From Desulfarculaceae bacterium (GTDB taxonomy: Bacteria; Desulfobacterota; Desulfarculia; Desulfarculales; Desulfarculaceae): a stretch of 64,000 nt of DNA. Each line of letters starts with the position of its first letter. Position 1 is the stretch's first letter. A program made the translations under genes and the position numbers. The DNA lies in NCBI GenBank assembly GCA_021737145.1, contig JAIPEN010000001.1, positions 310,001 through 374,000 of the forward strand, written 5' to 3'. Below the pieces are notes generated by a model that was not told the origin of the DNA, searched no databases, and saw only the letters and a program-made list of their open reading frames with translations. Below are positions 49,562 to 51,118 of this stretch, piece by piece.

Positions 49562-49588
49562 GGGCGGGGTTTATCCCCGCCCTTTTTT
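49562..49588 (+). terminator. Rho-independent terminator
   Basis: GGGCGGGG-TTTAT-CCCCGCCC-TTTTTT. Confidence 0.88.
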
Positions 49589-49681
49589 GTTGTTGCAAAG
49601 TTGAACCCCTCCAATTGCTGTGGTATTTAGGTAGATTAGTTTCCGAATACGGGGAGCCAGGAAGTAGAAAAGGAGCGCACA

Positions 49682-50137
49682 ATGTCAGTGGCCAAAATTG
49701 AGTTTGAAATCGGCAATATCAGGTTCTCCGGGGAAGGGGACCAGGCATGGCTCGGGCAACAACTCGATAAAATCATTGATAGGGCGGAGGAACTTATTAA
49801 GCTTGCACCTTCGCAAAAGGCTGGCGACCCGGGAGGTCAATCGGGCTCATTACCCCCTGATAATTCGGATATTGCCCAGAAGACACTCCCCGCCTTTCTG
49901 AAGGACAAGAATGCCACCAAAAAGCAAGTCCGAAAATTTTTGGCAACAGCGGCGTGGCTACAAGCAAAAGGAGGGAAAAGGCTTAAGACCGGAGACGTAA
50001 CCTCGGCGTTAAAAGATAGCAACCAAACGAGGCTTAACAATGCTTCGGATTGTCTTTCCCAAAATGTCGCCAAGGGATATTGCGAAAAAGATGGGGCAGA
50101 ATTTTTTGTCACCCAGGATGGCATGGAGTCTTTATAA
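49682..50137 (+). CDS. Hypothetical protein with winged-helix-like C-terminus (first gene of an atypical-composition bicistron)
   Basis: 151 aa, AAGGAG SD upstream; IEFEIGNIRFSGEGDQAWLGQQLDKII then KKQVRKFLATAAWLQAKGGKRLKTGDVTSALKDSNQTRLNNASDCLSQNVAKGYCEKDGAEFFVTQDGMESL. Confidence 0.75.
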   Translation: MSVAKIEFEIGNIRFSGEGDQAWLGQQLDKIIDRAEELIKLAPSQKAGDPGGQSGSLPPDNSDIAQKTLPAFLKDKNATKKQVRKFLATAAWLQAKGGKRLKTGDVTSALKDSNQTRLNNASDCLSQNVAKGYCEKDGAEFFVTQDGMESL

Positions 50138-50140
50138 AGA

Positions 50141-50893
50141 ATGCTTACACCTGCCACAGCGCTCAATGCTGTCCCTAGGGGGCTCAGGAACCCCCTCCTT
50201 ACCGAGTACGGGCAGATTGTCGGCAATTTTATGGAAGGACGCTGGGCAGCAGCTGAACTTTCGGGTGGTCGCTTTTGCGAAATCGTCTATTCGATTTTAG
50301 ATGGTCACACAAAAGGGCGCTACCCAACTACGCCTTCAAAACCCCGTAACTTTGTTGATGCCTGTCGCAGGCTCGAGAGCAACACAGGTGTTCCCCGAAG
50401 CTTCAAAATTCTAATTCCTCGGTTACTACCGGCTCTTTATGAAATCAGGAACAACCGAAACGTAGGCCATGTAGGTGGCGATGTTGATCCAGATTTCATG
50501 GACAGCAATGCTGTTGTGTCGATGGCCAGTTGGATTATGGCTGAATTGATTCGCGTTTTTCACGGTGTCTCAACAGACGAAGCTCAGCAGCTAGTTGACT
50601 CTCTAGTGGAAAGGACAACCCCGCTAGTCTGGGTTTCTGGGGGTGTGCGCAGAGTTCTTAATCCAAAGCTTTCGCTGCAAGACCAAACCCTAGCATTGCT
50701 TTGTTCTTGTAGCGGAACGACTAAACGCGGCGACTTGCTCCGATGGACTGATTGTAAAAACCACACATATTACAAAAAGCTCTTGCGCACGATGCACCGT
50801 GAACGTCTTATCGAGTTCGATGAAACTAAGGATGAGATAACCATTTTGCCCCCTGGGGCAAAGGAAGCTAGCAGGCTCATTGGTACGCTATAG
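50141..50893 (+). CDS. Hypothetical protein with HEPN-like RX6H motif and wHTH-like C-terminus
   Basis: 250 aa, starts 3 nt after previous stop; ALYEIRNNRNVGHVGGDVDPDFMDSNAVVSMASWIMAELIRVFHG; C-terminal LCSCSGTTKRGDLLRWTDCKNHTYYKKLLRTMHRERLIEFDETKDEITILPPGAKEA. Confidence 0.75.
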   Translation: MLTPATALNAVPRGLRNPLLTEYGQIVGNFMEGRWAAAELSGGRFCEIVYSILDGHTKGRYPTTPSKPRNFVDACRRLESNTGVPRSFKILIPRLLPALYEIRNNRNVGHVGGDVDPDFMDSNAVVSMASWIMAELIRVFHGVSTDEAQQLVDSLVERTTPLVWVSGGVRRVLNPKLSLQDQTLALLCSCSGTTKRGDLLRWTDCKNHTYYKKLLRTMHRERLIEFDETKDEITILPPGAKEASRLIGTL

Positions 50894-50921
50894 AAAATCT
50901 GCTGCATCTCGCCAATTCACA

Positions 50922-51010
50922 TAAAAAGACGCCTCCTTACGGAGGCGCCATCCCCTCTCCGCTTGGCTAAAGCATCTAGATCGCGCCTGATGAGCCGGGC
51001 GACCGCCCAC
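50922..51010 (-). pseudogene. Decayed duplicate of an acyl-CoA dehydrogenase 3' end with its terminator
   Basis: Resembles 51937-52020: AAAAAGACGCCTCCTTACGGAGGCGCCATCCCCTCTCC...CTAGATCGCGCCTGATGAGCCGGGCGACCGCC versus AAAAAGGCGCCCCCTAGCGGAGGCGCCCTACCCTTTCCC...TTAGATCGCCCCGATGAGCCGGGCGATCACC. Confidence 0.5.
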
Positions 51011-51118
51011 CTCCAAAATACCCACCTCCCCCATTGACAACCCCCGTCTCGCCCGTCACCCTCTGGAGTAACAGCCCACCCGCGCACGCGGCCTCGGGCC
51101 GCGAGATAGGCGAGAGCC

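Follow-up and report, generated by a model that had tools for sequence, protein, structure and literature searches.

In the Panacea (PanA) antitoxin network, one type of partner is combined with many unrelated toxins (PMC10440598). HEPN proteins are defined by an R-X4-6-H motif with a polar residue (N, D or H) after the arginine (PMC3710099). We analyzed a 64,000-nucleotide stretch of a Desulfarculaceae genome (contig JAIPEN010000001.1, positions 310,001 to 374,000; hereafter the window), in which an original prediction had singled out two adjacent genes, gene 1 and gene 2, as a partner and effector pair; this interpretation is supported. We favor the reading that the pair is mobile and forms a module of the toxin-antitoxin-like or abortive-infection kind, in which a HEPN ribonuclease toxin (gene 2) is controlled by a winged-helix partner (gene 1), and give it about an even chance of being correct. 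The two genes and the relevant parts of gene 2 lie in the window at these positions:

49682..50137, + strand: gene 1, open reading frame (ORF) for a 151-amino-acid partner protein, kept upstream of gene 2 in homologous loci
50141..50893, + strand: gene 2, ORF for a 250-amino-acid probable HEPN ribonuclease effector (sequence alignment and AlphaFold2 model)
50141..50605, + strand: N-terminal helical HEPN-like domain of gene 2, residues 1-155 (AlphaFold2; weak non-winged-helix Foldseek matches to HEPN proteins)
50279..50281, + strand: invariant E47 in helix 2 of gene 2 (52-sequence alignment)
50447..50470, + strand: R103-X6-H110 motif (RNNRNVGH) of gene 2, predicted active site, spanned by sub-threshold Abi_C matches
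50675..50887, + strand: C-terminal winged-helix domain of gene 2, residues 179-249 (AlphaFold2; Foldseek matches of MarR type, probability mostly 0.98-1.00)

Gene 2 was aligned with its relatives (52 sequences in all; identity of the others to the window protein is 27-65%). Residues G43, E47, R103, R106, H110, D121, W131, E135 and R138 are invariant in this alignment, and N104 is conserved at 90% or more. The R103-X6-H110 motif lies within residues 101-113 of the protein, EIRNNRNVGHVGG, and with its N after the arginine it has the form given in the published HEPN definition. Since R103, R106 and H110 do not vary among the 52 sequences, it is not a chance match. Many HEPN families also have a second conserved acidic residue, typically within Ex3[KR]; gene 2 has invariant E47 and E135, the spacing of E135xxR138 being different. 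The AlphaFold2 model is confident (mean predicted local distance difference test score, pLDDT, of 89) and consists of six helices (residues 13-31, 35-58, 71-78, 86-104, 117-141 and 145-155) followed by the winged helix. The order of the helices is as expected for HEPN, with R103 at a helix end and H110 in the loop before the next helix. The non-winged-helix Foldseek matches include the HEPN proteins TT1696 (1ufb), AF0298 (2hsb), AbiV (9bj7) and Csm6' (8pe3). The earlier suggestion of an R-X6-H arrangement in a helical context thus held, the R/H pair being conserved in 52 of 52 aligned homologues, and the winged-helix-like C-termini proposed for both proteins appear as winged helices in the AlphaFold2 models. 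The HEPN fold itself, also proposed, agrees with the helix order and with the presence of HEPN proteins among the Foldseek matches, but at E values of about 0.65-1.1 it is statistically unproven.

Searches of Pfam, NCBIfam and PADLOC gave no match above a family cut-off for either gene. In PADLOC, gene 1 was without a match and gene 2 matched only JetB, over the winged helix (E=0.016); a PDB sequence search with gene 2 gave no HEPN relative. Matches to YopT, GAPT and thiamine enzymes were below threshold and were set aside as noise. Among Pfam families, Abi_C (PF14355) is matched by the largest number of gene-2 members, 5 of the 52, always below the curated cut-off (best E=0.0033, 17.9 versus 24 bits); the match spans the R-X6-H motif in both members inspected. 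By these sequence comparisons the gene 2 family is uncatalogued, and gene 1 is likewise without a catalogued family in the three collections. It is the motif, the helix order and the weak matches to HEPN structures and to Abi_C taken together, no single test being significant, that make the N-terminus of gene 2 likely, but not proven, to be a divergent HEPN domain.

A scan of one genome per species identified 53 loci. The gene-2 relatives span at least 15 bacterial and archaeal phyla, including Pseudomonadota, Acidobacteriota, Chloroflexota, Actinomycetota, Myxococcota, Nitrospirota, Verrucomicrobiota, Planctomycetota, Omnitrophota and Thermoplasmatota, among others. A gene-1-type ORF on the same strand lies directly upstream of gene 2 in 52 of 52 loci (L012-L063); the two mostly overlap slightly or are separated by fewer than 30 nucleotides. 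It should be noted that gene calling was mechanical and some ORF starts are uncertain; one of these loci (L036) is cut by a contig end and two (L051, L057) look frame-disrupted. Every homologous locus in the genome scan keeps the two genes together, a test that the original prediction had set for itself, with one exception on an archaeal plasmid. That plasmid supplied the only gene-2 match in searches of phage, plasmid and viral-contig sequences, and in plasmid searches neither the window gene 1 nor any of three further gene-1 types had a match. The distant gene 2 on Natronomonas pharaonis plasmid PL131 (L004:5935-7131) is followed by a short ORF whose start is hairpin-like. In another locus (L008:1-1252, - strand), an ATPase_2/STAND-like gene lies about 200 nucleotides downstream of the HEPN pair and may be a third component.

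About a dozen winged-helix types of gene 1 were labeled by eye and mapped onto the gene-2 tree. The labels require 13 changes for 13 types, where the minimum is 12, whereas phylum labels require 24 changes for 15 phyla. This near-minimal number against the many phylum changes indicates that the two genes travel together: as judged from the tree, the pair moves between phyla as a unit and gene 1 is rarely replaced. A replacement is seen in L019, where gene 2 is 56% identical to that of the window, yet stands beside an unrelated gene-1 type.

The gene 1 protein is composed of three parts:

49682..49804, + strand: N-terminal beta-hairpin and helix domain, residues 1-41 (IEFEIGNIRFSGEGDQAWLGQQLDKI; AlphaFold2)
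49805..49864, + strand: low-confidence linker, residues 42-61 (pLDDT below 50 at residues 45-57)
49865..50134, + strand: C-terminal winged-helix domain, residues 62-151 (AlphaFold2 and Foldseek winged-helix matches)

The N-terminal domain of gene-1 relatives is of at least two types, the beta-hairpin and, in other loci, an alpha-helical LD.EAR.RV..W form. A winged-helix profile built without the window's type nevertheless recovered the window gene 1 (E=5.9e-6; 0 of 490 shuffles). The full profile, including the window sequence, was then searched in 395 genomes of the window's phylum and 297 of Acidobacteriota (by record, the phylum of L022), giving 19 and 15 matches, respectively. When the genes adjacent to these 34 partners were read, 8 partners belonged to a HEPN pair of the window's kind, 14 had another candidate effector and 12 had none evident; the profile was built partly from these loci, and the counts are not an unbiased census.

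The neighbors of gene-1 relatives are unexpectedly diverse, a point beyond the reach of the original prediction. One relative adjoins ParE (Pfam E=4e-10) and one adjoins DUF4145 (E=1e-5). In three genomes, AbiEii is in one ORF with a gene-1-type hairpin and winged helix (E=9e-30, 4e-28 and 1e-30). A gene-1-type partner outside the 34 directly precedes a predicted pPIWI-associating nuclease (PF18165, E=4e-9; L079:696-2004, - strand), and a second HEPN-like family, with an RNYIHP motif, directly follows a gene-1-type partner in three genomes (L096, L097, L123). TIR-like proteins, recognized by motif only, stand beside the partner in L022 and L086, and also in L047, which is outside the two phylum searches; PLD-like proteins, again by motif only, do so in L087 and L124. 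These TIR-like and PLD-like proteins have no Pfam family, and one of each had no PDB relative. In two genomes, a partial ORF beside ParA gave a sub-threshold RelA_SpoT match (E=0.025). We tentatively propose, at somewhat less than an even chance, that the gene 1 family is a previously unrecognised hub, with an exchangeable short N-terminal domain and an exchangeable winged helix, which controls many unrelated effectors in bacteria and archaea. In that case the effectors would be the new HEPN family, the RNYIHP HEPN-like family, DUF4145, ParE, AbiEii and the pPIWI-associated nuclease, and probably TIR-like, PLD-like and RelA/SpoT-like proteins, and the family would serve as a modular sensor/antitoxin platform.

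Some further features of these loci were recorded. The AbiEii fusions are at L120:460-1797, L121:466-1797 and L084:3-1265; a DNA methylase adjoins the first and an HsdS-like gene the last. The effectors with the RNYIHP motif carry YRNYIHPEKE or YRNFIHPEKE, with no Pfam family in the members tested. At L022:1379-2829 and L047:9194-10662 (- strand), a second two-gene unit, consisting of a gene-1-type partner and a TIR/NDT-like effector (by motif only), adjoins the HEPN pair; the L047 effector has its own N-terminal winged helix, which matches the partner profile (E=1e-4). In L126 and L129, a ParA-like ATPase and a partial RelA/SpoT-like ORF come after a gene-1-type partner, possibly as a three-gene system. 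Four loci (L125, L127, L128, L131) have a gene-1-type protein upstream of a sodium/solute symporter-like gene and show no effector.

In the window, the pair begins just past the terminator of an operon whose last gene is the XRE-cupin gene, and a QueG-like gene lies downstream, as noted earlier. Two signals precede gene 1:

49562..49588, + strand: intrinsic terminator GGGCGGGG-TTTAT-CCCCGCCC-T6, read directly from the sequence, which ends the upstream operon
49670..49675, + strand: Shine-Dalgarno sequence AAGGAG of gene 1, read directly from the sequence

The two genes form a tight operon with a spacing of 3 nucleotides on the same strand, and their lengths and coordinates (stop at 50137, next ATG at 50141) agreed with the original prediction. 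An AT-richer island with deviant codon use had also been described. The GC content falls at the pair from 0.63-0.71 to about 0.49-0.50, and GC at third codon positions (GC3) is 0.50 in gene 1 and 0.48 in gene 2 versus 0.84-0.94 in eight neighboring genes. In a genome of the same genus (G006), the XRE-cupin protein is 91% identical to that of the window, and the DNA aligns to the window as far as the terminator and resumes near the QueG-like gene. The slot between them (L103, matching window 49592-51013) contains an unrelated AT-rich ORF of 257 amino acids with a lipoprotein-like start, and the terminator hairpin of the window also precedes this different insert. In G005, the slot (L105) contains another AT-rich ORF and a transposase-like ORF. 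Thus, the slot between the terminator and the QueG-like gene is a variable site and a local hot spot for insertions; the window genome probably acquired the pair recently. Among 98 related genomes, gene 2 is present in two, namely the genome of the window and a second one from its family. The composition, the variable slot and the scrambled phylum pattern on the gene-2 tree all bear out the horizontal acquisition that had been suggested.

The pair has the layout of a type II-like toxin-antitoxin system: a compact two-gene operon, a partner with a DNA-binding-type domain and conserved pairing. In the favored module, gene 2 would be a HEPN-type endoribonuclease with R103 and H110 as its active site and a winged helix of its own, probably acting as a dimer. 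Gene 1 would bind and inhibit gene 2 and would probably be the repressor of the operon. A foreign trigger, for example phage DNA or an infection product, would free the RNase, which would then cleave cellular RNA and stop growth, possibly with phage defence as the outcome. Several loci have defence genes near the pair: a D12 methylase (L012), HSDR_N and AbiGi (L021), GmrSD (L014), a C5 methylase (L058) and MNT-HepT (L041).

A number of observations weigh against this module. The Foldseek matches to HEPN proteins are weak, no HEPN family scores above its cut-off for gene 2, and when three Abi_C proteins were compared with it by profile, the motif alone aligned (E=0.16). The haloarchaeal plasmid copy of gene 2 is without an upstream gene 1, and phage and viral collections contained no gene-2 relative. 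The 12 orphans among the 34 winged-helix partners in two phyla mean that an adjacent effector is not obligatory. Finally, 130 genes near the pair matched 218 PADLOC models versus 26 for 130 distant genes, an excess that is inflated by redundant models, with PD-T4-6 supplying much of the visible list, one member each, and that is suggestive only as a sign of a defence-island setting.

Three other explanations were considered. Nearly as economical as the favored module is the possibility that gene 1 is a sensor/activator and not an antitoxin; gene 2 would be harmless alone, and the variable domains of gene 1 would sense foreign nucleic acid and switch the RNase on. This would suit the greater variability of gene 1, which in some cases has been exchanged altogether beside a gene 2 that remained similar, as in L019, and the tandem arrays of two to four gene-1 paralogues in L062, L058, L061, L055, L087 and L093. 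However, the gene-1 relatives beside ParE or fused to AbiEii stand where an antitoxin is expected, and we consider an activator role rather unlikely. A regulatory role for the pair would agree with the winged helices of both proteins and with those gene-1 relatives that are orphans beside housekeeping genes. Gene 2 would then be a non-catalytic HEPN-like protein (substrate-binding, like some nucleotidyltransferase-associated HEPNs and MtlR) in a housekeeping transcription regulator, but the patchy distribution among related genomes and the deviant GC3 make this very improbable.

The HEPN assignment itself could be mistaken, gene 2 having an unrelated all-helical domain that merely resembles HEPN and whose invariant residues serve another activity. 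There is no significant sequence or fold match to a HEPN protein, and R106, D121, W131, E135 and R138 are as invariant as R103 and H110. The R-N-X5-H sequence is nevertheless at the usual inter-helix position, HEPN structures are among the non-winged-helix matches and Abi_C is the commonest Pfam match; we regard an unrelated fold as improbable.

If the favored module is correct, gene 2 belongs to a family of HEPN effectors that is absent from the catalogues and present in at least 15 phyla. More important, the gene 1 family would be a second promiscuous partner platform beside Panacea. It would provide a handle on unknown toxins, in that the gene following a partner could be looked up wherever the partner is found, and one could test whether the trigger depends on the variable N-terminal and winged-helix parts. 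The open-access literature that was searched contained no description of the pair or of the partner family.

In comparison with known systems, gene 2 resembles Abi_C in its R-X6-H motif with N after the arginine, its helical domain and its association with defence genes. It differs in that its HEPN-like domain is followed by a winged helix, its partner is a winged-helix gene and the matches are below the Pfam cut-off. Like HEPN-MNT (HepT/MntA), the pair is a two-gene operon with a probable HEPN toxin, but the partner is a winged-helix protein and not a nucleotidyltransferase, gene 1 having a hairpin and winged helix with no nucleotidyltransferase match. Type II and type IV toxin-antitoxin systems (ParDE, AbiE) likewise have the partner gene first, a short overlap and a DNA-binding-type domain in the partner, and gene-1 relatives occur beside ParE and fused to AbiEii. 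The effector here, however, is HEPN-like, and its neutralisation by gene 1 is a proposal only. The closest published logic is that of Panacea, since the gene-1 family likewise pairs with many unrelated effectors; gene 1 is not related to it, has no Panacea domain (no Pfam match above noise) and consists of a short variable N-terminal domain, a linker and a winged helix.
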